Assembly: GCA_021432635.1 (NCBI GenBank)
Contig: MU270017.1
Coordinates: 186,001-250,000 of the forward strand
Source: Thozetella sp. PMI_491
Taxonomy: Eukaryota > Ascomycota > Sordariomycetes > Chaetosphaeriales > Chaetosphaeriaceae
DNA length: 64,000 nucleotides
Reading direction: 5' to 3'
A model generated the notes under the pieces. It was given only the letters and a program-made list of their open reading frames with translations. It did not search any database and was not told the origin of the DNA. This document shows, one piece after another, positions 2,544-51,069 of this stretch. Within the stretch, counting starts at the first letter, position 1, and every line of letters begins with the position of its first letter. The position numbers and the translations under genes are program-made.

Positions 2544-5500
2544 ATGGCGACAACTGAAATACCACAGCCTCCGGGCTGGCCGATCATCGGTAACTTGTTG
2601 GACAGGAATCCTGCTCGACATCGCGAGAAATATGGTGCGATTCGTGAGGACATGACTATTAAAACTTGATGTATCCTGACAAAATACACTAGGGCCCATA
2701 TTTAAGCTCCAACCTGGAGCAGGGGTGCCATCCAGAGTTATGGTTTGCTCCGTTGAGCTGTTGAACGAAATCTGCAATGAAAAAGTCTTCGCTAAGAGTC
2801 CAAGGGCCGGCGGCCTTAAGCAAGTGCGAAACCTGACCCACGATGGACTATTCACGGCTCTCCATGGTGAAGAGAACTGGGGCATTGCACATCGTGTTCT
2901 CATGCCTGTTCTTGGAAGTGTGGCTGTCAAGGACATGTTCTATAGTGTGTTCAATCCCTGTCCCTCCTCACCTTGCTTCTCGTTAGGTCACGGGAAACAA
3001 TGGGCACTAACGTGATCCTAGAAATGCATGACATTGTGTGCCAGTTGGTACTCAAATGGGCTCGGCTTGGCGAAGGAGCCACAGTCATGGTGACTGAGGA
3101 CTTCACACGTCTGACGCTAGATATCATTGCTCTGTAAGATCTCAGTCGGTGTCCCACGCTGCGTCTCAGACATTCTAATTCGGGCATATAGGTGCGCCAT
3201 GGACACTCGATTCAATTCGTTTTATTCAGAAACCCCTCACCGTTTCGTTGAATCTATGTATGCGTTCCTGGAAGAGTCGGGTATGCGAAGTATCCGACCC
3301 TCTTTCCTAAACGACTATGTCTATACGGGTTCGTCACACAAATACTGGGAAGACGTCAAGGTCATGAGGGAGGTAGCGCGTGGTGTGATCGAGAATAGGC
3401 GCACCACTAGCTCGTCTCACAAGAAGGATCTGCTTGACGCAATGCTCAACGGAATGGACCCGAAGACGGGCAAGGGTTTGGAGGAAGAGACAGTCATCGA
3501 TAACATGATTACGTTCTTGATTGCTGGTATGGTTCTTCCCCTCCGTCCATCTCTCTGGGCCATTTTTTTGCCCGAAATTTCCTTCGGCGGCAGACCAATG
3601 GCTGATGAGACGCAATATTAATGAAGGCCATGAAACTACGTCTGGTCTGCTCTCTTTTGTCTTCTACGAGTTGGCCAGAAATCCCGCAGCACTGAAGACA
3701 GCTAGAGAAGAAGTCAATAGTGTTCTTGGGCACGGCGCGATAACTCCGGCTATGCTTTCTCAACTTCCCTACATCACAGCTGTCATCCGCGAAACCCTTC
3801 GGCTAAACCCAACAGCACCTGCATTCTCTGTGATGCCCAAGTCAAACAATCCTGCCGACTATCCCATCTTTATCGGAAAAGAAAGGTACCCGATAGCTCA
3901 AAACCAACAATGCGTTGCCGTTCTGAGCGAAATCCATCGAGACCCGGCGGTGTATGGAGACGATGCCAATGAGTTTCGTCCGGAGAGAATGCTAGATGAG
4001 CCCTTCGGCAAATTGCCAAAGGGAGCTTGGAAGGTAATGGAACAGACCATAACTATACCCTGTCGAATTATCCCTACCGATTCATTTACGCAATGTACTA
4101 ATGATGCTAGCCCTTTGGAAATGGCGCGAGATCATGCATCGGCCGAGCAATTGCTATGCAAGAAGCAGTCATGACCATCGCAATTCTCCTCCAGTGCTTC
4201 GAATTCGAACTGGCCGACCCAGACTACAAGTTGGTTATACTCAAGACGCTCACAGTGAAACCGAAAGACTTCAAGTTGCGTCTGAGACTCCGCGATGGTC
4301 TCGATCCAACCACTCTCATGGGGCGTCTTTTGAGTGGCAGCGCTCATGGCGTGGCCCCGCCCCAGGCTATGAATTTGGGCAGCCTTGGAACTCGTTCCTT
4401 AGGCTCAGAAGCTGGAGCCTCTCCTCTGTCAACACCCTCGGATCAGCAGACGGAGCTTTTCGTGTGCTACGGATCAAACACAGGGACTTGTCAGAGCCTG
4501 GCCCATACCCTTGCGGCTGAAGCACCACAGCACGGGTTTTCTCCATTGGTTATGCCCATGGACGAGGCAGTTGAAAAGATGACAGACAACAAGGCTCCGG
4601 TCGTAGTTATCACTGCGAGCTACGAGGGGGAGCCGCCGGACAATGCTGCATCATTTATCAAATGGCTTACAGCTATGGCTCAAGGCATGAAGGACGGCGG
4701 AAATCCGTTGGCTGGGCGGTTACACGCAGTATACGGCTGTGGACACCGTGACTGGATCGACACTTTCCAGAAAATACCAACTCTAGTGGATGGCACGCTT
4801 ACTAGGTGCGGCAGCAAGCCAGTCGCGGTAAGGGGGTTCTCGGATGCTGCGAATGACGACATCTTCAACGAGTTCGACTCATGGGCTGACGGCTCACTAT
4901 GGCCAGCTCTCGAAAGAGAGTTCCAAAAGAGTCAGAAATCCATGGAAAATTCGGGCAGCAGCGCGGACTTCGGCAAACACGGGAGAAGAGCTCCATCGTT
5001 GAATGGGGGAAGAATAGCAGACCTGGAGGTAGTTCGAAGTCGTAGAACTGCCGAGTTGCTACAGAACGGGTGCGAGGCCACCGTTCTGGAAGCAGAGACT
5101 CTCACTGCACCAGAGACACCTGAGAAGCGACATCTTAAATTGCGACTCACTAAGGATGTGAAGTACGCTAGCGGCGATTATCTTGCAATTTTGCCGGTCA
5201 ACCATGAAGAGACAGTCAAGGCTGTGATGAATCGATTTGGTTTGGCTATCGACTCAGAGGTTCTCCTTGGTGGCAACCTCCAAAGTATCGGATCTGGACA
5301 GATCAGCCTACATACACTGTTGCGAGAATTCCTCGAGTTGAACCACCCCGCCACAGACAAGGTAAGAACTTTCTCCTTTCTCAGTGGTCACTGAACTTTG
5401 TAAACTCACGAGTAGTTTAGAATATTCGCGCCATTTCCCAGTCCATCCCCGAGCAAGCACAAAGGAACTACCTGGAAAAGATAGCAGCGTCTAGAGGAGC

Positions 5501-6290
5501 TGGGGAACAACGTCCGACGGCGCTACAGCTACTCCAGCTGTTTCCAACCGCTAAATTGTCGTTGGTGGAATACCTCGCGATGCTCCCGCCGTTGCACGTA
5601 CGCCAGTATTCTATATCATCTTCGCCGCTCCAGGAAGCCGACACATGTACTCTTACGTATGGCGTCCTTGATGGGAAGAATGGAAAACATAACCAGCTTG
5701 GAGGTGCCGGATTGCCTGGGGCGGCATCCAATTATCTCGCCGACCTGAAACCTAATGACCGCCTATGGGTTTCTGTGCGCCCAAGCCACCATGCCTTCCA
5801 CCTCCCTAAGGATCTCACGGCTTGCCCCTTGATCTTAGTGTGCTCTGGTTCCGGCCTTGCACCATTCAGGGGCTTTATCCAAGAGCGGGCGGCCGCCCTG
5901 AAAGCACAGCCAAAAATATCGCTAGCAAAGTGCACACTCTTCATTGGCTGCCGACATCCCGACATTGACGCTATCTATGCACAGGAGCTCCGAGCCTGGG
6001 AGAAGGACGGGGTGGTCGAGCTACGATACGCGTTCAGCACAGCCCCGAAAAGAAGCGAGGGTTGCAAATACGCCCAGGATTTGCTGTGGAAGCATAGAGG
6101 AACTTTCATGCCACTTGTCACAGACAACCAAGCCAAGATCTTTGTCTGTGGATCTTCAAAGCTTGTTGATGGCGTCAGCAAGTGTGTCGTTCAGGCATAC
6201 GCTGAGAGAATGCGGAAGACGACAAAGGAGGCCGACGCTTGGTTTAGGGCTATCCGAAACGATCAGTTCATGAGCGATGTCTTTAATTAG
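2544..6290 (+). CDS. self-sufficient cytochrome P450-reductase fusion (CYP505 type)
   Basis: Single-chain monooxygenase: an N-terminal P450 fused to a diflavin NADPH reductase, as in P450-BM3 and fungal CYP505 (P450foxy) enzymes, which mostly hydroxylate fatty acids near the omega end. Exons 2544-2634, 2693-2944, 3022-3133, 3192-3526, 3627-4033, 4111-5361 and 5421-6290 give 1105 aa, close to the family's usual size. Key P450 motifs are intact: HETTSG with Thr268, the ExxR pair at Glu319-Arg322, and the haem loop [10 protein letters not shown] with Cys408. The FMN domain starts near residue 514 (YGSNTGTC) and the FAD/NADPH part fills roughly 690-1080 ([20 protein letters not shown]). There is no membrane anchor, so it is probably cytosolic. 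The substrate is unknown. Confidence 0.93.
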
Positions 6291-34253: not shown

Positions 34254-37200
34254 TCAAGCTGCTAGTGCCAACTGGGGAGCCACTGGCGGCTTCTCGCCGT
34301 CGGTTCCTATGATGGAAGACCTTTTAGCCGGTATTTTGGAATCATGGCAGGGCCAGTCGATGGTCGATAAGAGCTGTAGCCGGTTCGAGTCGCACAAGAA
34401 CTGCACGGCTAGCACAAATAGATTACCCATCGAATTCGCCTGCTCCTCCGAGACCACGTGCTCGTCATAACTCACGGTTACCTTGACCCCTTCTTCAGCC
34501 ATGTCACACTTGAACAGGATAATGTCGTTGTTGAAGCGCTGTATGCCTCCCCCCTCGTCATCAAACTCAAAGATATCTGTGTACTCGGTTCGATACAGCG
34601 GCTCGATAACCAGAATAGTCTGGAATTCGCACGCCGCAGAGCACTCGGGAGACAGCTGTCGTATGGTTTGGAGACCGAGCTGGGCGTGTGGCGTCATCTC
34701 GGCGCTATCAGCCTGCACCTGCGAGAGGAAGTCTTGCAACGTTTGTTGCGAATCAACCCTAGTTGCTCGGGGCATGGTGGCAAACGTTGGGTTTACTATA
34801 CTATCGACACCCGGCACGGAAATCTCGCGTCCGGAAACTGTCTCAAGGTAGTTGACCCTCGAGGACTCGGTCATTTGGGCTATTGTCAGGGCCAATGCAG
34901 CGCGTACAACATTCGCTGCTGTGATGCGAGACTCCTTGGGCTGGTCAAGGCGAACATAACGCGAGAGAACGCCAGAAGAATGAGGTCGGTATGCGGGATA
35001 TGGAACCTTAGGATATGTTGCGACATCACCCGCTTGGTACTGCGACAGCCAGTATTCTCGAGATGAGGAATCATCTGAGCCCTTCGTATGGCTGAGAAAG
35101 CGAGTAAAGGGCACTTCAGGCTCCAGAAGCTCTCCTCGGTACGCCCTAGCGAGAGCATTTAGGAATAGGAGTACTGAAACACCATCATAGACTGTGTGGT
35201 GGGTGGTCCAGACAATCAGGTTGTCGGACAAGCTCGGGTTCGTTTGCGGTCGGTCATCTTTGATGTAAGCAAAGCGGGTGAGCGGCTCACCGAAGTCAAC
35301 ACGGCTACCGAGATCCTTGGCAATGTACGTCTCCATCGAGGTGGCCACGCGCCATCTAGCCGTCTTCCTTACCACAACTGCGTATGTGCTAGTACCCGAC
35401 TGGATGACTCTGGTTCGCATGAATGCAAATGCTTTGGTGACGGTGTGCCAAGCGGCGCGAAACTTTACTTCATCAACCCCCTTACACAGGCGTATCGGAA
35501 AGTGCGCGACATAGCTCCCGTCGTTTGCCAGTGACAAAGCCCATAGTCCCTCCTGCTGAGGTGTGAGCGGGTGGATGTCTTCAATGTCTGTCGGAGCGAC
35601 CCGACATTGGGTGGCCGCGTCACGGATGATTCTGTTCTTCTCGGTCTCTGGTAGCAGCTGGAACGGCTCAGGATCAGGGACCACGCCAAGCTCCTCTATC
35701 TGAACAGCCTTTTCAGCCAGAGCCGCAAGACTGTGTGAGTTAAAGATTTCAGTGTAGCCGACGAGGTACCCACGGTCCCTTGCCGCCGCAATTAGCTCGA
35801 TTGCAGTGATTGATGAGCCTCCCAGGGCAAAGAAGTTGTCGCCAAGTCCGATTGCCCCCAGAGGAAGACCTAGAGCACTGGCCCAAAGCTGCTGGAATAC
35901 GCGCTCGGAAGGGCTCAATAATAGACGGCGTTCGTCTTTCGGCGTTGACTGTTTGTCACTTGTTGTCTGCATGAGTTCATTAATGGTCAAGGCGGAAGCC
36001 CACTGGCGCAAGGCTTTCCGATCGAGCTTCTTTGACGCATTGTAAGGAAGCGACTCGATCTGGTGGAAAACTCGTGGGACCATGTACTCTGGCAGACTTT
36101 CTCTTAACTTCCCCTGTAAGAATGGGATCATAGCCTTTAGAGTGTCCATAGGAGCGGTCTTGTCCCTCAGCTGAACGAAGGCAACCAACGCCTGGTCTCC
36201 ATTTCCACCCGCTGGGATGATCAGATCCGCAGCAACGTCGGCAGTTTCACCGAGACTAGTCCTCAGTACCGTTTCAATTTCTCCAAGATCAATACGCTGG
36301 CCTCTAAGCTTGACCATCGCATCTTTGCGGCCGACATATGCCATCTCCCCGTTAGGCAGGTAGCGCATGAGATCGCCAACCTTGTAGAGTTTGCTCTCGC
36401 AGGGGGTTCCCACTGCTGCTCGCCATGCCGGTGGGTCAATCAGGGTTGCTTCAGTCTTCTCTGGATCGTGTAGGTATTCTTGGAAGAGGCCAGGTCCTTC
36501 TATCAGCAACTCGCCAACCGCCCCGATGGGAACCAAGCGCGCGTGATCATCCGGGTCCACAAGCCAACCGTGAATATTCTCAGGGCGACCAACAGATGTG
36601 CTGCGAGATGCAGGGTCTGTATATCCGAGCTCCTGAACAAACCAGGTGATACACTCCGCGGGACCGTACGCCTGCAGAACTCGGACCCTATCCACCCAGG
36701 CGTTGGCGTCCTCTGGGGTGACGGCTTCGCCACCCATAGAAAGCGTCTTGAAAGTCGGGATGTTGTAGCGGCGGAAGAAACGTGAGAAGGAAGGGGTGAA
36801 GAAGGCCCACTCGCATCTCATTCGGTTCATGGCTCCCTCCACGTCGTTAAGACGCTCATTTTCGGATGGGATGCACATGCAGCCACCATGGACGAGAGGG
36901 GCGTAAATCTCGGTCAAGCTGACATCAAACGTGTAGGCAGCCCACTGGAAGACTCTCGTCTCTGGCGCGTCTAGAAGCTGGCGCGGCGCGTTCTCAACGA
37001 TACCCGTGCACATCGATGTGTGGGTATGAACAATCCCTTTGGGAACACCCGTACTGCCTGAAGTGAACGAAATGAGACAGACATCGTGAGGCTCTATCTC
37101 TACGCCAAGGTTGGTGTCAGCTCCGTCTAACTGTTGAAGACATCCCCAGTCAATAACGACGGCGTTTGGGTATTCTGTATGTTGGAACAAGCTGTGTCGT

Positions 37201-38396
37201 TCTGGGGACGTGATCACAGCCGAAGCATCGACTGCCTTGATGATGAACTCATGGCGCGATTTAGGGTGAGCTGGATCCAAACAACAATACGCCCCGCCAG
37301 CCTTGAGCACGGCCAGCATAGCAACGACGGCCTCGGGGGATTTGTCGAAGCATAAGGCGACCCTAAACGTAGGCTTAAGCCCAGACTTAGAGACGAGGTG
37401 ACGGGCAAACCGGTTGGCAATGGAATTGAGATCCTTGAAAGTGACCTCGCCCTGCCATGAGTGGAGAGCTACATTTTCTGGGAACTTCGCGGCGGTTTCC
37501 TCCACGAGCTGGTGGAGCAGCGTCCTTTCCGGTTGGAGAAGTTGGTAATTCCAACTACCGATAATAGCCAGATCTTGCTCACTACAGGAGTTTACACGAG
37601 ATACCGTATCCTCGGGGTTTGCAAGGATATGCTCTAGTGTCTTTGTAAAAGCTCGAGCAACGTTGTTCGCCTGAAAATCGGTATGGACGCCCGGGTCGTA
37701 ACTCAAGGATGCCTGTATTGATGTCTCCGTGCATTCCACGACGATACTGAGATGATCCTAGAGCCATGAGCATGTCTGCCACGAAACGAGACAATGTATT
37801 ATACTTCTTACCTCTGAGAGAGACGATCTAGAGTCATCTTGCTTTGATGCCTTGGTGTGGTGGTTGTTAAGAGGGCACTCGATCACAAGGGTTGTATTCG
37901 TCGCTTGGCGGAACTCGTCTTCCGATGGGCTGGGCAGCAATTGAAGGATTGGCAACGGGTCGGCCCCATCTCCTGCAGGAACCGCAGCACGAAGAGCCGA
38001 AAGTACAGCATGAGAATGCGAGAGTTCCGGTTGGTACTTCGCTACGTACGCCTTGGGGCTAGTGCGGCTCTTGTCGCTACCGCCGGCTTGGGTATTCTCA
38101 CAATGCGACAGCGTCGTGCTGCGACGACGAGGTGGATTTGCTGCGTTATTCTCCAGGTATACGTAGCTAGTGAGGTCGAAGAAACGGTAGAGGGTGATTG
38201 CATAGCCAAGCCTGATAGTGGCGGAAACGGGGACACCATGGCTAGCGGCGAAAGTGTCAAAGTCGGCAGCCGACGGCATGCCAAGTGGTATCGACAACAT
38301 TGTGCGGCCTTCGCTGGACGAGGTTCGCCCTTCTGTCGTGGGGTCCAATATGAGTGCAACTTCTTGCCAATAGCAGCAACGTGGTAGGTTTGGCAT
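34254..38396 (-). CDS. single-module nonribosomal peptide synthetase (partial C, A, T, C)
   Basis: Exons 38396-37812 and 37757-34254 give about 1362 aa. The N-terminal 250 residues resemble the second half of a condensation domain but have no HHxxxDG, so they are probably a non-catalytic remnant. The adenylation domain (about 265-800) has A3 SFTSGSTGVPKG, A4 AAYTFDVSLTEI with the Asp that usually binds the alpha-amino group, A5 AYGPAE, the core YKVGDLMRYLPNGEM and A10 NASKKLDRKA. The carrier domain has DNFFALGGSSITAIEL with the phosphopantetheine Ser. The final condensation domain has an intact HHTVYDG. There is no thioesterase or reductase, so release may be by this C domain. The start is uncertain; a downstream Met at MLSIPLG is an alternative. 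It is the core of the neighbouring cluster. Confidence 0.9.
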
Positions 38397-39157
38397 ACAA
38401 AGGTACCAGTCTTTCAACTGCGCGTACGTTGAAAGGAGCGGTTTACCTCGCCGTCGGCCTCCAGCGCAGAAGCGAAGAAGGCTGATGGGTCTGCTGCGCC
38501 GCCTATATGCGTACTCCCCTTCCTAGCGCTCAACTGTACACCGGTTATGTACAGACGTTTACAGGGCTAGTTTCAGCGCTAGTCTAGGTTATAAGTTTCT
38601 TGGCATGTCTTACAGGGTCCTTTCGACTGTCCTTATGGGGCAATGGAGCTGCCCCCCACACCGATCTGACAACAGAGGGAACACTCCCTCATCTGTATTC
38701 ATCTGTAAAGCAGTCAATGATTTTATTGGGGATAGTTGCCAAGACTAGAATCGGCGGATTCTGCATAGAATCCTGGGTAGCATCCGGTATGGTGGCGGCT
38801 AGGCCTCGGCGGGCACTGCTTCTAGGCCCGTCCCGGCCTGCCTGTTTCCGAGTAACATCGCCGATGGATGCAGCACAGAGGCACTCACCTCCCAGTTAAG
38901 GACTAGGCCATGACAGGCAACAAATTTTCTCGGCTTGTAGCGGTGACCAAACCAGGGTACATTTGCACCCGCGCTCAATGGTGTCAGACAGGCGAGTCCT
39001 TTTGCCTCGTCTCACCAACTACTCTGCGCGCCTCACTTGACACACCACTCAAGCCTGGCAGTCCCAGCTAGTGCTTGGGTTGCACGGGTTTTCGACTAGT
39101 TTGAGAATATGCTATAGGCGTCGTCTCGTCACGTCTCCTTCACCAGCCTCTTGCACA
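38397..39157. promoter_or_regulatory. divergent promoter of NRPS and efflux carrier
   Basis: 761 bp between the starts of the NRPS (minus) and MFS (plus) genes, so both promoters lie here. A divergent core-enzyme/transporter pair supports shared control. No regulator gene was found in the NRPS block, and no repeated operator was convincing. Confidence 0.5.
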
Positions 39158-40849
39158 ATGGGCGAGAGTACAGCCAGCGGTCCGGGAGAGGGTGCTCCTC
39201 CGCCCGAGGCACGAGACGCCGCCGACGCCGCAGCGGCCAGTCCAGAGAAGATGCTAGTAACCACTTCGGGCTCAGAGAATGACGAGAAATCGTCTCCGCA
39301 GCCCCAAGATACTGCCGACGACGCGGAAGATGTTCCAGAGAGCCATCGCCTCAATCACCTGCAGCTGGTAACGCTGAGTATCGCGTTGGCGACCAACATC
39401 TTTGTGCTAGCACTCGACGAGTCTATCATCGCCACCGCAATCCCTCGCATAACGGACCAGTTCCAATCCCTGAGCGATGTCGGCTGGTATGGATCCGGCT
39501 ATCTCATGACCATGGCCTGCTTCCAGCTCACCTTCGGCAAGCTCTACAAGCACCTTCCGAGCAAGTGGGTGCTGCTCTCGGCGCTCACCATCTTCGAGCT
39601 GGGCAGTGCCGTCTGCGGTGCCAGTCCTTCGTCTAATGCCCTGATTGTTGGGCGTGTCATTGCGGGGATTGGGGCGAGCGGCATCGTCAGCGGTGTCCTG
39701 ATCATCATCTCCCAGGTAGTGCCGATGCGGCAGCGCGCCGTGTACACGTCCTCCGTCGCCAGTATATATGGTCTCGCTGCCGCATGCGGCCCCCTGGTCG
39801 GGGGCGCGCTGACGGATAGCTATCTCACCTGGAGATGGTGCTTTTACATCAACCTACCCCTCGGCGGAGCCGTGGCAGCCATCATCTTCTTTACCTACAA
39901 CCCGCCTCCGGAGAAGACGGAGAGGCTAGACAGCGTGCGTGAGCTAGTTGCGGCTCTAGATCCCCTTGGCCTCGTCCTATTCACTGGGGCCATTATCTGC
40001 CTCGTCTTGGCGCTTCAGACGAGCGGCATCGACGGGTGGAATTCTGCCCGACCGATTGCACTGATTGTTGTCTTCGGAGTCCTCCTGCTTGCCTTTTCGG
40101 GTGTCCAGATGTGGCTCAAGGAGGCTGGCACGCTGCCCCCTCGCATTGCCCGTATGCGCCAGGTGATCTTCTCGTCATTGTACGCGATGACGATCGATTG
40201 CTGCTATTACCTCGTGGCTTACTTCCTTCCAATCTGGTTCCAGGCCGTGAAGGGGACCAGCGCGCAGACGTCGGGCATTCAAATGCTTCCTCTCATCATC
40301 TCTGCGGTCCTAGCTTCTATCGTGGCGGGATACCTAGTATCCAAGACAGGCCACTTCTCTCCTTTCGTTATCATCAGCGCCATACTGGCCGCTATAGGCG
40401 GTGGCCTCTTCACGACCTTAAATCCACAGAGCGAGACGGGTCCCTGGTTTGGCTATCAGCTTCTGGTGGGTATTGGAGTCGGCTTAGGAATGCAGCAAGG
40501 TGCTGTGGTGGTTCAAAATGGACTGGATAGCGGGGATATACCGACTGCCATATCGGTTGTTACGTTATTTCAGGCGCTGGGTTCGTCGGTCATGGTCAGT
40601 GTCGGTCAGAGCGTTTTTGCCCAACGTGTCTACGATCAGTTGCACAGCATTGACCCAACCCTGACACGAGCCGCTATCATAAACTCCGGGGCAACTGAGG
40701 TGATCAGATCAGCCCCGCCCGGCCAGACGGAGGCTTTTGTCGAGGCCGTGAATGTTGCCCTTACACAGTGCTTCTATGTTGCAGCTGCTTCAGCATCCCT
40801 ATGTTGCTTCTTCTCTTTGGGACTAGGGTTTAAGAAGTTACAACAATAG
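39158..40849 (+). CDS. MFS drug:H+ antiporter, DHA2 (14-helix) type
   Basis: Single-exon gene of 563 aa. A 75-residue acidic, Ala/Ser-rich N-terminus precedes the first helix (LVTLSIALATNIFVLALDESIIATAIP). That segment has the motif D1 pattern LDxTIIxxAIP, here with Glu for Thr. Motif A is degenerate (GKLYKHLPSKWVLL), motif B is GRVIAGIGASGI, and motif C is GLAAACGPLVGGALT. The WRWCFYINLPLGG loop is typical of fungal efflux pumps for secondary metabolites. Position divergent from the NRPS suggests export of, or self-protection against, its product. The first in-frame ATG is at 39158; the frame upstream has none. Confidence 0.92.
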   Translation: MGESTASGPGEGAPPPEARDAADAAAASPEKMLVTTSGSENDEKSSPQPQDTADDAEDVPESHRLNHLQLVTLSIALATNIFVLALDESIIATAIPRITDQFQSLSDVGWYGSGYLMTMACFQLTFGKLYKHLPSKWVLLSALTIFELGSAVCGASPSSNALIVGRVIAGIGASGIVSGVLIIISQVVPMRQRAVYTSSVASIYGLAAACGPLVGGALTDSYLTWRWCFYINLPLGGAVAAIIFFTYNPPPEKTERLDSVRELVAALDPLGLVLFTGAIICLVLALQTSGIDGWNSARPIALIVVFGVLLLAFSGVQMWLKEAGTLPPRIARMRQVIFSSLYAMTIDCCYYLVAYFLPIWFQAVKGTSAQTSGIQMLPLIISAVLASIVAGYLVSKTGHFSPFVIISAILAAIGGGLFTTLNPQSETGPWFGYQLLVGIGVGLGMQQGAVVVQNGLDSGDIPTAISVVTLFQALGSSVMVSVGQSVFAQRVYDQLHSIDPTLTRAAIINSGATEVIRSAPPGQTEAFVEAVNVALTQCFYVAAASASLCCFFSLGLGFKKLQQ

Positions 40850-41565
40850 TACATCGGCTCGATGGTCTCCTTATTAAACAGCCGTTTGCCATGACTACCT
40901 CTCCCAATACCCTGAACCCGTTTGAAGCAAGCAGGCGGTATTGCAGCGAGTTGGTGTGCACATCTCTTGTAGGTTTGGATGATTCAGTCCAGCAGCGATC
41001 TCCAGTAGTTGTAAGACTGGTTTCCACAATATATGCCAGCAGCGAGTTGATCTGCATGCTATCGTCATACCTCCCACGTGGTCGTGTGGGCAAGTACAGT
41101 TTCCGGACCCGAAGAGCCGGTGTAGGAAGTCCCCAAATACCCCGGTACAAACAGGTATTGTCAGCGACATTCCTAGCACAGCTAGGCGAGTGTAAGTTCA
41201 GGTCCATATGGGGTTAAATAGTACACTGCAGGGGGGGTATTATGGGACCCATTAATCACAAATGCTAGGATTTACTACACTCTTTTAGGAATCTCGGCCC
41301 AATTGTCTCAGGCTAGCTCAAGGGATTGCACACTGGTCTCTTGGCAAGGTGACTGAGGTGGCTGCTGTAAGCTTACCTTTCTAGCTCGTGGACCGTTTTC
41401 TTCTTTGTCTTTACGACTTTAGGGTCTACAAAGGGCCTCGAATTATCAGACACTATACCGTTCTCTCCCCCATTGCGTCCCGCGGACAAGAGCAACTATA
41501 CGCCACATCATTCCCTAACCCTAGTAGTGGTATTCCTAGGGGAATTGAGCGTTCTGCAAGCAAGT
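40850..41565. other. intergenic region before the P5CR-like gene
   Basis: 716 bp with no convincing exon. It holds the 3' end of the transporter gene and the promoter of the reductase gene. No repeat or RNA gene was recognised. Confidence 0.5.
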
Positions 41566-42662
41566 ATGGACGACTCGACTAGCTTCCCTCTGACAATGGC
41601 CATCATTGGCTGCGGTAAGAACTTCATCGGCATGCCCTTCCCGATATCGTACTTATTTGCCAAGTCAAGGTCGGCTAGGTACGGCCATATTGTCTGGCTT
41701 GCTTGCAGCTCTTGGCCGAGATGCTGCCAGTGGATCAAATGGGGTCAAACAGACAGAGGAGATTCTTCCAAGTCGATTCCTTGCTTGCATTCGCACGGCT
41801 GAGCACGGTGCAGAACTGGAAACCAAATTTTCTGCGTACACCGTCCCGAATAGTAGCCCAAGTGTTGACATTTGGCGACACCACAATGTCGAAGCAGCGA
41901 AGCAGGCGAAAGTGGTGCTCCTCGCTTGCCAGCCGGCCCAGCTTCCCGGGATACTTGCCGAACAAGGCATGGCCAATGCCCTCCGTGGAAAGCTCGTAGT
42001 AAGCATCTGCGTGGGAATACCAGAAGCTGCAATTCAAGAGCTGGCTTTTGGGCCTTCGCAGGCAAATGGGACATGCCACACCGACAGCGATTGCCATATA
42101 GTCCACGCCATGCCGAACACGGCCAGCATGGTCGGGGAGAGCGCTACAATACTGCTCCAGAGAGAAACGCCGTTGCCGACAAGTTACGAAACAATGATAT
42201 CCTGGATGTTTGGTACCATAGGGACGGTCACCAAAGTTGCTCCGGATCTTATGAACGCGGCAAGCATAACGGCTGGGTCGACCCCCGGGTTTCTAGGCAC
42301 GTCAGTGCGGCTCTGTGCATCATAGCAAGATGGCTAATGTGACTATAGGTCCCGTCTTATTGGGAATTACCGCAGGGGCCGTGTCCGCCGGGTTGGATGA
42401 GAATACCGCCCTACGAATGGCTGCGCAAGCAATGAAGGGTACCGCGGAGATGGTTCTGAGGCTCAGCGAAAAGCCGGAGGAGATCATGGACAAGGTTGCT
42501 ACCCCCGGCGGATGCACGGAGCGCGGTCTACAGATGCTGCTTAACAAGGAGCACAAAGGGTCTGTCCCTAACGCTTTCGAAGAGGCAATGCGTGCAGCCA
42601 TTGCGCGTGCCTTTGAGCTCGGAGGAGGAGCAAAGAACATAGCCAACACTGTATCAAAATGA
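41566..42662 (+). CDS. pyrroline-5-carboxylate reductase-like enzyme
   Basis: Exons 41566-41614, 41670-42296 and 42349-42662 give 329 aa. The first splice restores the Rossmann motif IIGCGRLGTAILSGLL. The middle contains the family signature HAMPNTASMVGE, and the C-terminal dimer domain runs from PVLLGITAGAVSAGLDENTALRMAAQ to ATPGGCTERGLQMLL. The second intron must start at GC (AG/GCACGT, 42297) to keep frame; no GT donor gives the family sequence. P5CRs reduce a cyclic imine to proline. In NRPS clusters, such as apicidin, relatives make or modify cyclic imino acids like pipecolate. A role here in supplying or reducing a pyrroline-type unit is inferred from context. Confidence 0.82.
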
Positions 42663-43295
42663 TGACGCGACATGAACGATAACTGTAGTGCGGGCCTCAG
42701 GCCGATTGCGGCGCCCCGATCTCTGGGGTCTGGTCCGTGTTTCTCCTTTGAAGGCGAAGGAAGCGGGACACGTTTCTGCCCGCCTCAGTAAACGAGGATG
42801 TGGCCCCCCACCTGACCAAGTCCAGCCCCTTATCCTAGCACCCAAGTCTGTTTACTTCCGGCCCCGTGTAACCTGTCACAAGGCAACCCTCGAATATCCT
42901 CACTTGTGAGGCTTATCAGCGGAGAAGTCTCGGCACACTGACCGGCCGAGCCATCAATCACAATTGAAGCCGATTACTGATGTAAGCCCAAAGTACCAAA
43001 GGCAGGGATGCCGTTCACTGCCGAGACCACGCGATGGTGTTTGCTGGACTGAGCGGGGTAGCGGCAGAGCACTTTAGCCACTACCATCGACCCATTGGAA
43101 CGGGAAAAGTGACGTACCAGAGACGGCCAATTCGCACATAAAAGAATAGCCGGCGGTGAAGAATGTCCTGAAACGCTTGCATTGCATCGATCGAGGCTGA
43201 CCATCTCTCCCTCGTTGCTCAAGGAGCTTACAGCCACGGAGGCGTCCTTGTCGTTGGAAGAAAAGTTAGCTGGGACTCCCCTCACGAGCTTCGCA
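42663..43295. other. intergenic region before the FAD monooxygenase
   Basis: 633 bp, GC-rich near 42690-42860. The frame of the FAD enzyme is open upstream to 43182 but contains no ATG. No other gene was recognised. Confidence 0.5.
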
Positions 43296-44721
43296 ATGCC
43301 CGACTTCCCCAAGCTCCCCCCATCCGGGATCAAGGTAATTATCGTTGGGGCCGGTTTCGCAGGGCTTTCGGCGGCGATTGAGTGCGACCGGAAGGGCCAC
43401 AGCGTGACGCTATTCGAGAAGGTGGATCAGATCGAAGAGATCACACGGTTCGGCGACATCATTAGTTTCGACCCCAATGGCTCCCGCATCTTCGAGCAAT
43501 GGCCCGGTGTCATCGATGCTATGAACCGCATCATCCGGCACACGACGTGGCTCGACTACTACAAGTGGAACGGCGGTTTCCAGACGCGGCAGTCCTTCCT
43601 CGGCGAGAAGAAATGGGGACGCAGGTGAGACCACGGCCGCGCTCTAGAAGCGACTAGAAGCGTTTCTCCCAACTCGGGCTGGTCCTGACAGGTAGCAGAA
43701 TAAACGGTCACCGCGGCCAGCTGCACAGTATCATCTACCAGCACGCTCTGGACCGCGGCATCGACATCCGACTAGGGCACCGGGTGAGCGACTACTTTGA
43801 GGACGACGACAAGGCCGGCGTGATAGTTAATGAAGAACGCGTCACGGCAGATGTGGTGATCCCCGCTGAGGGCGTCCGCTCGCGTGGTCGTAAGATCGTC
43901 CTAGGATACGAGGACAACCCGAGATCTTCCGGATATGCCGTATACCGTGCCTGGTTTCCCTCCGACGAGCTTGCTAAAAATCCCATTACGAAGCACCTCT
44001 ATGAAAATGGAGACAGCCATGTAGTGTACATTGGTCGAGATATCCATTTTCTCAGCTCTTCGATACAAGGTGGGACGCAGCTCAACTGGGCCTTCACGCA
44101 TATTGACAATTATGACATCGTGAGTCCTGTCGCCTCTCAGGTGGTTCTGCTTTGGAGGCCTCATGCTGACTAGGAATCTGCCGACAGGAAGAGAGCTGGC
44201 AATTCCCGGGGACGGTGGAGGAGGCCCTGTCGTTTCTGGAAGGGTGGGATCCCGTGGTGCGTGAGATCGTCAAGGCGACGCCTAAGGGGAGGCTGATTGA
44301 CCACAAGCTGGTCTTCCGTGACCCTCTAAAGACCTTTGTGTCTCCAAAGGGCCGGATCGTCCTGATCGGCGACGGAGCCCACCCTTTCCTTCCGACTTCG
44401 ATCCAGGGAGCCAGCCAGTCGATCGAAGACGGAACTACCCTCGCCGTCTGCTTGGAGCTAGGCGGAAAGGATAGCATTCCTCAAGCTACCAGAGCCTACG
44501 AGGCCATTCGATATGGCAGAGTGCATAAGGCGCAGGCCACAGGCGTGTCGACCCGAGAGAGATGGCACCACGCGGATTGGGACGCCATCGCGAAGGACCC
44601 CGAGAGATTGCACTTGGTCAGGGAACAGTGGCTCCTGGGCTTTGACGCCGAGACGCACGCCTACAATGTGTTTGCCGATACCGCGGCCAATTTGGCAAAG
44701 GAGCCGGCAGCGAAGCTCTGA
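43296..44721 (+). CDS. FAD-dependent monooxygenase (salicylate hydroxylase-like)
   Basis: Exons 43296-43624, 43699-44119 and 44188-44721 give 427 aa. It is a class A flavoprotein: VIIVGAGFAGLSAAIE at the N-terminus, FEKVDQIEEI at the end of the second strand, and the GD motif VLIGDGAHPFLPTSIQGASQSIEDG. This subgroup in fungal clusters hydroxylates phenolic rings or epoxidises double bonds. It is not of the N-hydroxylating class B type. The DG-type stretch reads VIPAEGVRSRGR, with the usual Asp replaced by Glu. It sits between the reductase and methyltransferase genes, so it is a likely tailoring enzyme of the NRPS product. Confidence 0.88.
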
Positions 44722-44850
44722 CGGGGGCACACCGGGAGCAGGAGGGCACAGGTGGCAGGAGCCTCTGCCGTTCACTCGGCGATGGGAAGGTAGTCTATGA
44801 GCTTCCTCACTAGTATCCGCTAGCAGCACAAGTAAGCAATACATGGGTAA

Positions 44851-45642
44851 TCACTTCTCTACGAAAAGCACCGCCTGGGTCGGGTACTTTCTGTAAGTAG
44901 TCCAGAACTCTTCGCCCGTCTGCTCGATCGCGCGATCCGGGATCCGGAGAGGCGGCCACTGCAGTTTCCCGGTCATGCCGCCGGCTTTCGCCGCTTGCTC
45001 GTAGATGGCGCGGTGCAGGTGGTAGCTGCGGAACTTGACTTCCTCGGGGGTTCCTGGGCTCCCAATAATGTCGGCCTCCCATCCCTCTACACCAGCCATC
45101 TTCTCGACGTATCGAACCGAGACCCCCCACTTGCCGGGCGCCGCGTTCTCGGCCTCGGTGAATCCCTGGACAAATGTGTCTAGGTCCTCGGCCGGGTGTG
45201 GTGCGACCCCGACGAAAAGGCCGCCCGGTTTTAGATTTGCCGAGATGGTCTCAAACATCTGCGTCATCTCGGCTGCGGTGGTCGAATAGTTGAGGAGCCA
45301 GACCCCGAGGACAATGTCGAACGGCTCCTGGTCCGAGAGCTTGCCGAGGGTTATCACGTTGCCGACCCGGAACTCCAGCGATCGCGATACTTCCAGATCG
45401 TCGGGGAGAGATTTCTTTGCGGCTTCAATCATGCCCGAGGACATGTCGATGCCAAGGACGAAGCTTGCGCCCCACCCCAACAGCTTGTGCGAAAAGAACC
45501 CAAGGCCACAGGCAAGATCAAGCACCCGGGCCCCAGCGATCTTGTCTTTTAGAGCATCATGCACATTGTCCATCTCAACGATGGCCGCTGGCACTGTCTT
45601 GAGAACGCCATACTTGGCACCAATTTCGTCGTACTGCGTCAT
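44851..45642 (-). CDS. class I SAM-dependent methyltransferase (Methyltransf_11/25 type)
   Basis: Single-exon reading of 263 aa from ATG 45642. Motif I is VLDLACGLGFFSHKLL, followed by LGIDMSSGMIEAAKK and the acidic FDIVLGVWLLNY; a later LKPGGLFVGV is the usual fourth-strand region. The C-terminus has the variable substrate cap. The frame stays open upstream to 45999 with other ATGs, but MTQYDEIGAKYG looks like the natural family start. The gene follows the O-methyltransferase in the same direction. It may N- or O-methylate the NRPS product or an intermediate. Confidence 0.85.
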   Translation of the reverse strand: MTQYDEIGAKYGVLKTVPAAIVEMDNVHDALKDKIAGARVLDLACGLGFFSHKLLGWGASFVLGIDMSSGMIEAAKKSLPDDLEVSRSLEFRVGNVITLGKLSDQEPFDIVLGVWLLNYSTTAAEMTQMFETISANLKPGGLFVGVAPHPAEDLDTFVQGFTEAENAAPGKWGVSVRYVEKMAGVEGWEADIIGSPGTPEEVKFRSYHLHRAIYEQAAKAGGMTGKLQWPPLRIPDRAIEQTGEEFWTTYRKYPTQAVLFVEK

Positions 45643-45970
45643 GTCTGCTGTGCAACATAGAAAGATAAAGAAGATGCGAGGTTTGCGGGATGTGTTCCCC
45701 TCAATCTTGGAGCTGCCAGTAGGTGTAAGAGGGGCAACTCGAGGCCGCTCCATAGTAGGATGCCCAGCGTCGCATTCTGGTAGACGACAGCCGAAAATCA
45801 ATGGGTGCTCAGCTCGGGTATGCATCCCGAAGTTTTGGGCATGGGTAAGTTCCCCGTTACACGAGATTTGATGTGCGCCACGATGCGCGTTTACTATACT
45901 AGGCCTAGTTATCCGTCCTCCCCTGGTAGCAACCTCAGCCGTCGGCATGTACGCCTTGTCAACGCCCAAT
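45643..45970. other. gap between two tandem methyltransferase genes
   Basis: 328 bp that should hold the end of the O-methyltransferase transcript and the promoter of the next methyltransferase. On the minus strand it is open in the frame of the downstream methyltransferase, with ATGs at several points, so a longer N-terminus is conceivable. Confidence 0.45.
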
Positions 45971-46840
45971 CTAGACAGCAATGATCGTACTGATCTCAAC
46001 GACTTTCTAGTAAACGGTAATTAGCTTTCTCTCGCCTCGCAAGTGGCCCAAGACATGCGCGAAATGGGGAGCATCTTACCGGGCCACGTTCCTCTGGGTC
46101 GGTGAGATATGACTCGCTTTGATACTTCACGGCACCGCTCTCTCCGCTCCCTCCTTTCTTGACATACTCGAGATAGTCGGGCGCCCCAGGCATGTCCGTG
46201 TTGTCTGCGATGACAATCGACCCAACGTGAAACAGTTTCAGCTGCTCACAAAGCTGCAGGTCCGGCTTGTAGTGCTCCTCCCAGTGATCTATGAACGCCA
46301 TGTCAACTTTTCCGGGGCTCACCTTGCCATCGGCATGCAGTTGCTTGAGAGACTCGGCTGCCGGTCCCACCACTATCGTCACCACATCCTCGAGCCCCGC
46401 CAGCTTGATCAAGTCACGGGCGATCTGAGCCATCTTGGGATCCAGCTCGAAGGTATAGAGATGCACATCGTCTGCGCCTGGGTTGAGCTCCTTGAGAGTG
46501 GCGGCCCATCCGATGGCCGAGACTCCCACGAAGGTGCCAAATTCAAGGATGAGCTTGGGCTTCGGGTCGAGACCGGTGAGTGCGCGACGGGATATTTCCA
46601 TCTTTTTCTGCCGATAGATCATCCCCAGACCCTCGTTATTGGCGAAGTCCTCGATAGTACGACATAGTTTCCACGGCTGGCCCTGCAACTCCTCCGCTGG
46701 GAGAGAGAAGATGTGCGAGTGGAGAGCAACAGCACGCTCGCTGTGGGGAGGTCTCTAATAGTGTATTAGCAAATAGATACGTGCAAGCTGTCGGGGCGAT
46801 CCTAGCTTACCCCTGCTGGCGGGTTTCTCTTTGGGGGCAT
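45971..46840 (-). CDS. catechol O-methyltransferase-like enzyme
   Basis: Exons 46840-46811, 46754-46080 and 46006-45971 give 246 aa. The fold is that of class I small-molecule O-methyltransferases of the COMT type: LILEFGTFVGVSAIGWAA as the SAM-binding motif, YTFELDPKMAQIARDLIKLAG, and metal-site segments MAFIDHWEEHYKPDLQ and SIVIADNTDMPGAPDYL. A terminal 36-nt exon ends KVVEISTIIAV, which matches the conserved family end; without that splice the tail is unlike the family. Together with the FAD hydroxylase it could methylate a newly formed catechol hydroxyl (inference). Confidence 0.87.
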
Positions 46841-47485
46841 TTTCACACAGACGATCCTAGATGTAGCTTTGGGCGGATTGAGAGATCTGATGGAGGCGGT
46901 GGAAGCGGCCAATTCGGATTTCTAGGTAAGTAGCAGCGATGCAGATTCGAAGTCCGAGAGGTGAGCTTCATTGTTCAATATATACAAGAGTCTCGCCAAT
47001 GAAGTATGGGATGAAAAGGAAACGCGTTTCTACACCCTCTTGAGGAGTGCATTACGTATGCAGCTGTCGGGTCTACGAGTCAAGCCCATATACCACCCGG
47101 AATAGAAATATGCGCAGCCGTATCTCCGAGTACGCCGCGTCTAACCTTACGCATCGGGCAATATAGAAGGAAAATGCCCGATTAAGTGCCTACTATACCT
47201 TACCCGCACCTGCTTGTTAGCCTCCAGGCTATTTACTACGACTCGGTTACGAAAGCGGTCGATTGCATGGTAGCAGCTGGCCGCTGCTCGTAAAATACCA
47301 GATCCTTTGCCTGCCGCAAATGAAAGGTCGATTATAGTAGTGATGTATATCTAATTGCCACCTAACTAGGCTATCGTAAGCCAGCCGGGTCATTATTGAA
47401 ATGATAATCCAGTCCCCTAGGAGATGATCATTCTCACCAATGGCCAGCCGAGCCATTGCGGTGAGACGCGCGGCTCTACTTTCCG
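46841..47485. other. intergenic region between O-methyltransferase and SET genes
   Basis: 645 bp, AT-rich in parts, holding the O-methyltransferase promoter and the 3' flank of the SET-domain gene. No coding exon was recognised. Confidence 0.5.
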
Positions 47486-48970
47486 TTAGTACTTCCCAGA
47501 CACCCTCTGTTTCAACTCCGTCCAGAGTTCCTTTATCCCTTCAATGTTGTCGTGCTCCACGCCGCCAAATTTAATCCACTGCTTCTCAGTCAATGCAATA
47601 TACTCTCTCGCGCTGTCCCATTCCCCAATCTCCATGTACGCCCTGGCCACCACTTCGTAATACACAACGAGCTGGGGCTGGAGCTCCTCGGTCTCAATCA
47701 GCGAGAACAGCTCTTCAGCCAGTTCTGCTACGCTCTCCTCGTCTAGGCCGTACTCGCTGTCTCCTTCGTAAGATTCGGCAAGGCTAGCATGGATATCTTG
47801 TATTCGTTGGCGCCGGTCGTCGGATTCCTTCTTCTGCGCAGGCGACGAGGTGCACATCCAGCACGTACAGTTGAAGCCCCATTCGCGGACTACAAGCTGC
47901 CGCTCCTCCGCAGACTTTCCTAGTGGGACGTCTGCCTTTCAGTTAGATATGGGCAGTGGAGAGCATCGGGTGCTCGGCCTTAAGCAGCCAGGGGGCCTTA
48001 CAGCTGTGGGTGACCTCCTCTCCAGCTAATATGTCCCGCAGCGCAACTACTTCCATCGTCATTGTCTGGGGAGAGTATCGCCAATAGGTACTAGACGCCA
48101 AGTTAGCCCTCGTTCAAGAACTCATAGCGCAACAAAGGTGATACTTACTTGGGCTTGCAATTGTGATTCACCCTCTAGTCCTCATGTGTTAGTGACCGAC
48201 ACAAACACAGAAGGATGTGATGCGTTATTGCTTACCGAGCCCCCAGGGAATAATCCCATATGAGGTACGCCATCAAGCTCGATGCCAAATATGTTTGTCT
48301 TCAAAATGTCTTCGATGAGTTCTCCTCCGGTGCTTCTTGCAAGTGACAATATAGTCGTTTGCTGCTCTTTAGGCAGCTGCCTGACAGCTCGACCCAAAAG
48401 GGCTCTGCGTTGGTGGAGGCTGAAGTATCGCTGGTATTCCATCGGCAGAACGATAGCCGGCCAGCCAGCCATGACGACGCTCCACTGCGGAATGGTCCTT
48501 CGAGCGATTACGCCTTTTCCTCGCCCTGGAAGGTCCTCCACGTCGTATGTGAGGTTAAGGTGGTTCCGGGAGTCCATATAGCTAGAAGGGTGATACCTAT
48601 CTACATCTGGGACGATAGAGTCGTCGAGTGTTTCTGCCATGCTAGCCGCTAGATCTGCCGTGGTGATGACACTGATGCCATGTTGGCCCCTAAACGGAAC
48701 CGATGTGTAGAGACAGAATTCGGGGCTGTCCTTGGAGAGCCTTACTGCCTTAACACAATATGGCGGGTATGACCATGGAGCCCAATCTCGCCTGTGGGAT
48801 ACAGTTTTCTGGCTGATTGGAGTTGGGCATGTGCTGAGAATAGTTGAGAGTGGAAAACGCGAGCCGTAACGGCTCCATGCGCATGTGCCTAGATCTACCG
48901 GTTTGGCGGTTTCTGCTTGTAAAGTGCTTGGGATTAACAATGAAAGAAGAGATATCGAGGAGAATTTCAT
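47486..48970 (-). CDS. SET-domain protein with N-terminal signal peptide
   Basis: Exons 48970-48236, 48174-48149, 48090-48002 and 47931-47486 give 431 aa. MKFSSISLLSLLIPSTLQA is a signal-peptide-like start; longer starts at 48979 or 48994 are in frame. After about 120 residues with several cysteines comes a SET core: LPGRGKGVIARRTI, a helical insert, then RVNHNCKPN (the conserved R-x-NHxC-xPN, built by a 26-nt exon), then GEEVTHSYVPLGKS, and a post-SET-like CTCWMC. The C-terminal 130 residues are helical and TPR-like (YYEVVARAYMEIGEWDSAREYI). Secreted or ER-routed SET proteins are common in filamentous fungi, but their substrates are not established. Whether it belongs to the NRPS cluster is unclear. 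Confidence 0.83.
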
Positions 48971-49917
48971 AGCGCTGCCCATTGAGGGTAACATTGTCGT
49001 CAGGTATGACGGCGACACTCGGTGCTGAAGCCTGTCGCGCGTTGCGCTGCACGACTGCTCATCTCTGTGGGATATACGAACGCGAAGTCCGCCACGTTTG
49101 CGGTAAATCTGGCCTCAAGCCGTTCAATAACCCGGGCGTTATGAGTTATACGGGATCACCAAGCCGGCATCGCTAAGTCCCGTCGTGGTTGGTTGCTTGT
49201 GGCGGGACCGGGTAAACTCGAAACAGAACCACAATTTGGTGAATAACCATGCCCTCAGTTACATGTTATACTGAGCACCTCGAGCCATGATTCAGAGTAC
49301 TTAGATTCGTGCTTGCTACGCAGAGCCTAGATGTACGAGATCTCTAGTATCTAGGACGGTGTCTATTCCTTGAGAACAGAAACGGATTTACCTTCATACC
49401 ATACCACTTCTAGGTTCCGAAAAACATTGGAACAGCAACGAACCGAAATGACCGTTCACCGGCTTCAAATCCTTGAATTTGTCTGGCTAACAAGGCAGCC
49501 TTTATGGTTAAGTAAATTCTATACTGTTATCTTAATATTCCATGTTGAGTCTTTAGTCCACCTGCAAAGAGACCGACTTGGGCCAACGAGTGAGGAGTAG
49601 GTGGATACGCCCGTCTCATGTTGGCGTTAAACCCGTCGGATGAGCCACCTGCTCTCCCGACTGTCGGCCTGCGGCAAGCCAGGAAGAAGCCCTTGGTCAA
49701 AACAATGGCCATCTCCACCCAGGCGGGGTATGGTCTGCCGTCAATAGTCTCCTATGTTTCGCCACCTTCATGACTATCCGTCGGACTGCCGTTCTTCAGT
49801 ATCTCTTGCTTATCTCTCAACCCCACCACACGATCAGTCTACTAGTTGCCCCCCTTCGCCCCCCTCGCCTAGTCCGCACCGCTCCCTCAAGGTATAGCTT
49901 AGCTCTTGGTTTCAAAC
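48971..49917. other. divergent intergenic region
   Basis: 947 bp between the starts of the SET-domain and PhyH-type genes. The right end (49740-49917) is pyrimidine-rich, as expected for a promoter and 5' leader. No gene, repeat or clear operator was seen. Confidence 0.5.
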
Positions 49918-51069
49918 ATGGTAGCTAATTCAACTTCATTTGAGCGGCCCGATCCATCGGGTCTGGGAGCCGTGGCTTCCAAGGCGGGGATCGAGGCCCT
50001 AACCGCTAAGCCCGCCGGCGAGAACAGGGTTTTCAATAAGACCGGCGTGACCTACGGCGACTGGCGCGATGACCTCGTCCGCGATGGGTTTGTCGTGGTG
50101 AAGGGGGCTATACCGCAGGAACGGGCTGCCAAATATGCGGACCAGATGTTCACCTACCTGGAAGAGTTGTAAGTAGCCATATCCCATAGGTCTTCTATCA
50201 CCAAAGCCTGCCTCAGAGTGCTGAGACTATCTAGTGCCGGTGGCCTGGGATTCAAGCGCGACGACCCGTCGACGATCAAGGAGGCCAATCTACCAATCAT
50301 CAACTCCAAGGGCATGGTTAGCGGCTATGGTATCCCGCACGAAGACTTCACCTGGGCCATCCGCCAGGAGCCCGGAGTGGTCGAGGCATTTGCGCGGGCG
50401 TGGGATACCAATGACTTGATTGTGAGCTTCGATTCGATCAACTTTGCGTTCCCGAACCGTACCGACCTCGGGCCCAACACCCCCTGGCCGCACCAGGACC
50501 AGGATCCAGAGCGGCCAGGCTTCCGCTGCCTCCAGGGCATCGTGAATATCCTCCCCAACGGCCCCAAAGATGGCGGCCTGATCGTGTGCAAGGGGGGCCA
50601 TATGCTGAGCGAGGAGTTCCATCGCGCGTTCAAGCACGAACCGAACCCCGTGTGGCGCTGGACAAAGGAGTGGTACGGTTTCACAGATGCTGGCCTCGCA
50701 TGGCTCAAGGAGAAGGGATGCGAATGGATCAAGATTGAGGCGGAGCCGGGCGACTTGTTGCTCTGGGATTCGCGCACTCCCCACTACAATCTCTCGCCTG
50801 AGGGCTCCGTTCCGCGCTTTTGCGCGTACACTTGCTACATGCCCGCCGCCAACGCCACGCAGGAGGACTTGGCACGCAAGAAGAATGCTTTTGAGACGCT
50901 CTCTGGCACTTCTCACTGGCCTAACGCGCTCCACGTCCGGGAGCTTGACCTCTCCAAGAGGAACGGCGAAACCTGCCCCTATGACACCGGCAAGCCGAGG
51001 AAGCCAGTAGAGCTTACCGAGAGGGGATGGAGGCTAACCGGCATCCCATACATCGAGGCCGCGGTATAG
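49918..51069 (+). CDS. phytanoyl-CoA dioxygenase (PhyH)-family Fe(II)/2-oxoglutarate enzyme
   Basis: Exons 49918-50168 and 50235-51069 give 361 aa. The jelly-roll core shows the HxD iron motif in TPWPHQDQDP, the distal His in DSRTPHYN, and the 2-oxoglutarate-binding Arg shortly after (SVPRFCAYTCYM). The N-terminal helix-strand unit DDLVRDGFVVVKGAIP is typical of PhyH enzymes. There is no signal peptide. In fungal clusters such enzymes hydroxylate, desaturate or rearrange scaffolds. It is the last plausible tailoring gene of the NRPS block, but it could equally be an independent catabolic oxygenase. Confidence 0.88.

Follow-up and report, generated by a model that had tools for sequence, protein, structure and literature searches.

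What could a fungus make with a nonribosomal peptide synthetase (NRPS) of a single module when the genes beside it encode a reductase of the pyrroline-5-carboxylate reductase (P5CR) family, a class A FAD monooxygenase (FMO), two methyltransferases (MT1 and MT2) and an efflux pump? This question is raised by a locus of Thozetella sp. PMI_491, and in the present study it was followed in a window of 64,000 nucleotides, which corresponds to C3:186001-250000 (contig C3 being MU270017.1) in an assembly of 72.3 Mb and 157 contigs. Positions below are those of the window unless a contig label is given. Gene models were obtained with a spliced-gene finder, followed by a hand check and Pfam, and the comparison material throughout was the fungus's own genome, Pfam, NCBIfam, PDB and published papers.

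From its gene content, the locus is a real, intact-looking, uncharacterised and cryptic fungal biosynthetic cluster with a core at 34.3-46.8 kb. An earlier sequence-only reading of this DNA had listed a single-module NRPS with a partial condensation domain, a divergent DHA2 pump, a P5CR-like reductase, a class A FMO and two methyltransferases, and all of these were recovered with Pfam, motifs and PDB relatives. Since the genes carry introns, which are short, their ends differ from those of the bacterial-style open reading frames on which that reading relied. The core is tightly packed, with divergent and convergent gene pairs, and consists of the following features.

38396/38279-34254, minus strand: whole NRPS gene (spliced model)
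34254..37757, minus strand: NRPS main exon of 1167 codons, with the end of the condensation remnant, then the A, T and C domains (Pfam and motifs)
37758-37811, minus strand: NRPS intron (gene model)
37812..38396, minus strand: NRPS first exon, C-lobe remnant, with start candidates at 38396, 38300 and 38279 (Pfam)
38397..39157: intergenic region shared by the NRPS and major facilitator superfamily (MFS) genes, which diverge from it (gene models)
39158..40849, plus strand: predicted DHA2-type MFS efflux pump (MFS_1 E=4e-44, obtained with the longer open reading frame from 39071)
41596..42662, plus strand: P5CR-like reductase, three exons at 41596-41614, 41670-42296 and 42349-42662 (Pfam, NCBIfam)
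43296..44721, plus strand: class A FMO, three exons at 43296-43624, 43699-44119 and 44188-44721 (Pfam, PDB relatives)
44851..45642, minus strand: MT1, class I, ToxA-like methyltransferase (Pfam; 8rdl ToxA E=1e-22)
45971..46840, minus strand: MT2, catechol O-methyltransferase (COMT) family, predicted exons at 46811-46840, 46080-46754 and 45971-46006 (Pfam, PDB alignment)

Our best reading, tentative at a probability of about 0.4, is that a single module performs an aminoacyl transfer coupled to the oxidation of an indole, together with an imine reductase, methylations and export. We infer all of the reactions and their order from the gene content, domain order, motifs and family placement described below. 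The adenylation (A) domain of the NRPS would activate one amino acid, the thiolation (T) domain would hold it and the C-terminal condensation (C) domain would pass it on to an acceptor that is a small molecule. The FMO would oxidise an indole in this acceptor, and the aminoacyl thioester would capture the oxidised indole by the logic of fumiquinazoline biosynthesis; alternatively, the substrate of the FMO may be a Trp that the NRPS has loaded, an arrangement found in terpene-tryptophan hybrids. The P5CR homologue would reduce a cyclic imine, either supplying an acid of the proline or pipecolate type or acting on an imine of the pathway. Methyl groups may be placed on N or O by MT1 and MT2, and export of the product would fall to the divergent DHA2 pump. 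The earlier expectation of a small, amino-acid-derived and probably methylated product is supported.

The single-module synthetase and its neighbouring monooxygenase

The main exon of the NRPS matches the Pfam models AMP-binding (E=2e-64), PP-binding (3e-10) and Condensation (8e-27), and the upstream exon holds a degenerate C-lobe alone, which covers positions 390-450 of the 456 of the Condensation model (E=0.006, 15.7 bits against a gathering threshold of 30.6). The architecture is that of an intact-looking single module in the order C remnant-A-T-C, with the motifs A3 ISFTSGSTGVPKG, A5 YGPAE, A8 GRKDAMVKLRGQRIDLGEIE, T DNFFALGGSS and C WTTHHTVYDGVS; the patterns used for A1 and A10 gave no match in the NRPS. 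The terminal C domain keeps the His and Asp of HHxxxDG in the motif HHTVYDGVS, and with one A, one T and one C domain bearing the catalytic His and Asp, the protein has the make-up of the fungal A-T-C conjugating NRPSs. In AneB, the counterparts of these two residues, H794 and D798, are described as required (PMC10720950).

Such modules have been given several roles, as far as the relevant passages of the published accounts go. FmqB oxidises an indole and the monomodular FmqC then adds Ala (PMC10212144), and Af12050 and TqaB are single-module precedents acting on an oxidised indole compound (PMC11546977). ThmA loads Trp and AneB loads Pro, and both transfer to terpene alcohols (PMC10720950); FlvI loads dimethylpipecolate and esterifies, and LPSB, with the order A-T-C, passes its acid to another NRPS, LPSA (PMC8902786). 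For SubK, an esterification is predicted (PMC13107220). In these accounts, fungal A-T-C modules pass one acid to a small acceptor or to a partner NRPS, and the presence of an FqzB-type FMO beside such a module therefore points to indole oxidation with aminoacyl transfer.

The FMO was compared by phmmer with PDB, in which 55 sequences matched at E<=0.001. Its top solved relatives are 7cp6, a 'MAK1-like monooxygenase' that we take to be FqzB (3.6e-85, 289 bits), CtdE 7kpq (2.4e-76, 260 bits) and PhqK 6pvf (5.9e-58, 199 bits), and the next solved relative follows at 1.2e-38 and 136 bits. By its sequence, the enzyme falls with the indole-oxidising class A FMOs. In the passages on this group, FqzB (the product of Afu6g12060; PMC7902601), NotB, PhqK and CtdE are described as oxidising the indole C2=C3 bond (PMC8260726, PMC7902601), one Asp and two Arg are given as essential (PMC8260726, PMC11154958), and the N-hydroxylase PaxA and the nitrone-forming OxaD are also included (PMC11154958). 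In the present FMO, D54, R115 and R193 align to D60, R122 and R200 of CtdE by a hand count on the phmmer alignment, although this triad is not specific to the locus. A phenol hydroxylase was also considered for this gene and was rejected, as the salicylate- and phenol-type hydroxylases lie far behind among the PDB relatives.

The closest FMO paralogue in the genome, with 61% identity, was found at C82:159840-161090. Among the ten C82 proteins that were scanned are MFS, cyclin, lipase and tannase proteins and no NRPS, and C82 carries 0 of the 77 Condensation matches of the genome. In a viral contig collection, 0 relatives were found for this paralogue and 0 for the NRPS of the cluster.

The form of the terminal C domain bears on a different explanation, in which the module, like LPSB, would take up a starter that its C domain then delivers to a partner NRPS whose gene lies elsewhere in the genome. 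We consider this quite unlikely. The motif HHTVYDGVS is of the elongation kind, and a FastTree tree of 33 C-domain stretches of the own genome places the domain among the elongation-type ones, with a placement support of 0.35; the domain thus looks elongation-type, which would equally fit a partner in trans. LPSB itself has the same domain order and feeds LPSA (PMC8902786, in its passage on this pair), and several multimodular NRPSs are present in the genome. Against these points, no second NRPS was seen in the flanks that were read. The gene at C3:171843-175652, about 45 kb from the NRPS, encodes a large protein of unusual architecture, in which an A domain and AMP-binding_C are accompanied by a weak C-like match at the C-terminus; it was considered as a partner and rejected, since no carrier domain (PP-binding) was matched in it.

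The A-domain code was read by hand as DVTFSGATWK, at positions that we presume to be those of GrsA, and neither this code nor five near variants of it found a match in the literature searched (open-licence papers). The best match of the NRPS in its own genome reaches 40% identity, and it is therefore no recent duplicate. A second copy of the cluster was looked for and none was seen in the genome, where the NRPS reaches at most 40% and the best other copies by E-value reach 36% for MT2 and 34% for MT1. Two further A-T-C open frames lie on C23 and C1. That on C23 (507126-510704) carries the AneB-type motif QHxxxDxxS, and an ABC transporter, a 2OG-Fe(II) oxygenase, an aldo-keto reductase and an MFS gene are found near it.

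The P5CR homologue and the methyltransferases

The P5CR gene matches P5CR_dimer with E=3e-23 and 82.6 bits against a Pfam threshold of 25, and the NCBIfam model proC with 182.1 bits, below a cut-off of 196.75 that is set for bacteria and archaea. P5CR_dimer is found at three places in the genome, and the copy in the cluster shares 39.1% identity with the one on C13 and 29.6% with the one on C46. The cluster and C13 copies share the TPGGCT segment and the position and phase of the first intron. The second intron (42297-42348) must be GC-AG, with the unusual donor GCACGT, for the frame to hold, and the spliced protein shows no indel at this site when aligned to the C13 copy. The most plausible role of the enzyme is either to supply a cyclic imino acid or to act on the product by reducing an imine. 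Published clusters offer examples of the company that such enzymes keep: in passages on the apicidin F cluster, the pyrroline reductase APF3 serves pipecolic acid (PMC4109984), and in some swainsonine-type clusters a P5CR-like gene is noted as an unexplained extra (PMC8403587).

If the supply of an imino acid were its role, the locus could be a system of imino-acid conjugation, which is the most probable of the rival explanations, though unlikely in itself. The P5CR would make pipecolate, proline or methylproline, the module would load it and transfer it to an alcohol or an amine, like the modules of the aculene and flavunoidine pathways, and the FMO would act on a scaffold that is not an indole. 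The P5CR lies beside a divergent NRPS-MFS pair, as does APF3 in the cluster for apicidin F and its pipecolic acid (PMC4109984), the single modules AneB and FlvI are described as loading proline and dimethylpipecolate (PMC10720950, PMC8902786), and the P5CR is a diverged member of three in the genome. These points are opposed by the nearest solved relatives of the FMO, which act on indoles, by the absence of a nearby terpene synthase among the proteins scanned, and by the A-domain code, from which no substrate is assignable.

The GC-AG intron could also be taken as a sign of decay. In that explanation, the locus is what remains of a larger multimodular cluster, such as an apicidin-like one, after the loss of modules, and the other genes are leftovers or have unrelated roles, for instance in detoxification. 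The C remnant at the N-terminus of the NRPS fits this, as does the sharing of families with apicidin F (NRPS, P5CR, FAD monooxygenase, O-methyltransferase and MFS) in a block in which fatty acid synthase (FAS), P450s and a regulator were not found, and the related FMO on C82 stands apart from any NRPS. We take FmqA of the fumiquinazoline (fmq) cluster to carry a shortened C domain as well. Against a relic stand the spliced frames of the present locus, which are open and keep their motifs, and the working fmq cluster, for which a figure legend also marks a truncated C domain (C*) (PMC10212144). A relic is the least probable of all the explanations weighed here.

Returning to the oxidation of an indole coupled to aminoacyl transfer, a further step may be added to it. 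The FMO would oxidise the indole, the module would add the amino acid and the P5CR would reduce the resulting indolenine or pyrroline, which would give a reduced, methylated indoline-amino acid scaffold of an undescribed kind. This extended form is very unlikely to hold in full.

The two methyltransferases differ in their relatives. MT1 has ToxA (8rdl, 1e-22) as its best PDB relative, followed by similar entries named 'methyl transferase' at 5e-21 and weaker, and these relatives suggest N-methylation as a hint rather than a proof. MT2 has COMTs as its best PDB relatives, 5zy5 (7e-29), which is presumably from S. pombe, and 4p58 (9e-27). The metal residues are kept in the alignment, and DHWEEHY stands where the COMT relatives have DHWK, so that a Lys is replaced by Glu. 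We assume the roles of these residues to be those of COMT, with an Asp/Asp/Asn metal site and Lys144 as the catalytic Lys. Catechol methylation by MT2, an idea raised in the sequence-only reading, is doubtful because Glu replaces what we take to be the catalytic Lys, and the indole-oxidising relatives of the FMO speak against the same idea. MT2 was accordingly rejected as an ordinary COMT: it aligns with catechol O-methyltransferases in family and metal residues, and its Lys is Glu.

Co-location and surroundings of the cluster

To judge the grouping of these genes, hand-picked places in the genome (22 FMO, 3 P5CR, 5 COMT and 25 NRPS) were paired within 12 kb or less, with independent placement assumed. 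The expected numbers of chance pairs were 0.005 for P5CR-COMT, 0.02 for FMO-P5CR, 0.025 for P5CR-NRPS, 0.04 for FMO-COMT, 0.04 for COMT-NRPS and 0.18 for FMO-NRPS. One pair per combination was observed, each time at the NRPS locus. The co-location exceeds chance for every pair except FMO-NRPS, which is unremarkable alone, and the six results are not independent, because all come from one locus.

Several observations weigh against the oxidation of an indole coupled to aminoacyl transfer, beginning with the elongation-type look of the C domain. A scaffold-making enzyme was not found: Condensation matches on C3 are limited to 220.4 kb and a weak match at 174.4 kb, with no trimodular NRPS; none of the 5 Trp_DMAT matches of the genome, which lie on C69, C12, C25 and C7, is on C3, which holds no DMATS; and no terpene synthase occurred among the proteins scanned at C3:156-260 kb, a scan of 10 of the 15 long flank stretches and not of every frame, with no genome-wide search for this family. 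The FMO subfamily is broad, and the Asp/Arg/Arg triad is also present in the paralogues on C82 and at 396 kb of C3; because it is shared in this way and C82 has no Condensation match, the triad is proof neither of an indole substrate nor of a link to an NRPS. PaxM and MAK1, which we assume to be relatives of the FMO, had no PDB match and so lie outside the comparison. A common promoter word is also absent, as the 6 promoters share no 8-mer in at least 4, no 7-mer in at least 5 and no 9- or 10-mer in at least 3 of them.

The genes around the core are listed below.

about 47486..48990, minus strand: SET-domain gene, SMYD-like, ends approximate and 5' end tentative (PF00856 E=5e-12)
49918..51069, plus strand: PhyH-family dioxygenase, exons at 49918-50168 and 50235-51069 (Pfam)
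beyond the PhyH gene, right flank: DUF4267 gene (Pfam)
55.1-59.9 kb, right flank: PDR-type ABC transporter (Pfam)
right flank, housekeeping type: Omp85/Sam50-like protein and ubiquitin-conjugating enzyme
left flank: GMC oxidoreductase and RTA1-like gene

Fungal_trans, RTA1 and the PDR transporter are Pfam families of fungal type and, with the short introns, fit a filamentous ascomycete. The SET and PhyH genes were kept outside the core. The SET gene, which the earlier gene list had missed, also matches SMYD3 (E=8e-5), and a possible N-terminal signal peptide was seen by eye in its upstream frame. The PhyH gene, counted in the block by the sequence-only reading, is present, and its tie to the cluster is weak. 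Its Pfam match is weak though above gathering (30.6 against 22 bits), no meaningful PDB match was obtained, and a structure of its main exon predicted without an alignment had a mean pLDDT of 32 and was discarded. The protein matches more than 10 other places in the genome, the best at 75%, and because the family is multi-copy its co-location says little; it probably lies outside the cluster and is not specific to it, and it was rejected as a core enzyme. For the MFS pump, the EmrB/DHA2 NCBIfam model gave 170 bits, below its cut-off of 230. As stated earlier for this block, no regulator is visible: no transcription-factor domain was present among the block proteins scanned, and the nearest Fungal_trans protein is at 19.9-21.2 kb. 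The latter belongs to a stretch at 13-24 kb with a glyoxalase/dioxygenase-like gene, an FAD phenol-hydroxylase-like gene, a fumarylacetoacetate hydrolase and an MFS gene, possibly a separate set for aromatic catabolism. At 2740-6290, several predicted exons encode a P450 (a Pfam match in the first part) and then a reductase-like sequence recognised by eye, which is perhaps a self-sufficient P450 fusion.

Comparison with known systems

If the best reading is true, the locus would combine the module with a flavoenzyme that oxidises indoles and with a diverged P5CR, and would thereby widen the oxidation-acylation strategy known for fumiquinazoline; the reading predicts indole oxidation, aminoacyl capture and imine reduction. 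Should this prediction fail, the locus would count as a further uncharacterised cluster of a fungus, the usual result; clusters like it are numerous in fungal genomes. The domains of single-module A-T-C NRPSs have been described as swappable between AneB and ThmA (in a passage of PMC10720950).

Stronger claims, of the fumiquinazoline, prenylated indole, apicidin or terpene type, were halted by the lack of a trimodular NRPS and a DMATS on C3, of a multimodular NRPS in the block and of a terpene synthase among the proteins scanned. The apicidin F cluster shares with the present one, at the level of families and not of compared sequences, the P5CR, FAD monooxygenase, O-methyltransferase, MFS and the divergent NRPS/MFS promoter. 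It differs in the 15.4 kb NRPS gene APF1 for a cyclic tetrapeptide, and in the FAS, aminotransferase, two P450s, cytochrome b5-like protein and bANK regulator that are described for it (PMC4109984, in part); here the FAS, aminotransferase, P450s, cytochrome b5-like protein and bANK regulator were absent among the block proteins scanned, and one P450 lies 31 kb off at 2.7-3.6 kb. The subrubine-type cluster described in passages of PMC13107220 shares the single module and was rejected as a model, as there is no DMATS on C3 and no P450 or decarboxylase was seen in the block.

AneB, ThmA and FlvI resemble the present NRPS as single A-T-C modules with the catalytic His and Asp, and ThmA loads Trp, a likeness of described features and not of compared sequences. 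AneB has QHxxxDxxS in place of the HHxxxDGxS seen here, and no terpene synthase turned up near the NRPS among the proteins scanned. The paraherquamide- and citrinadin-type systems (PhqK, CtdE) share the FMO group and, as we assume, the P5CR and methyltransferase families, with PhqD presumably the P5CR of the paraherquamide cluster. In contrast to them, the block has no bimodular NRPS with a reductase, and no DMATS-type prenyltransferase of the kind expected near a prenylated indole alkaloid locus is found on C3.

The FmqB/FmqC pair and the TqaH/TqaB pair, in which we assume the role of TqaH, resemble the present locus in that an FMO of the FqzB/CtdE/PhqK group adjoins a single-module NRPS. Here, unlike in fumiquinazoline and tryptoquialanine clusters, no trimodular NRPS is nearby, a P5CR and two methyltransferases are added and the NRPS starts with a C remnant; for the specificity to Ala in fumiquinazoline, the hand-read code offered no literature match for comparison. 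No known cluster with the same gene set was found in the literature searched, which comprised open-licence papers, and as regards the full set the earlier statement that the locus matches no known pathway is right. It does not hold for the core pair of an FqzB-type FMO and a single-module NRPS, which has precedents and resembles the known pair that acts on indole compounds derived from tryptophan.

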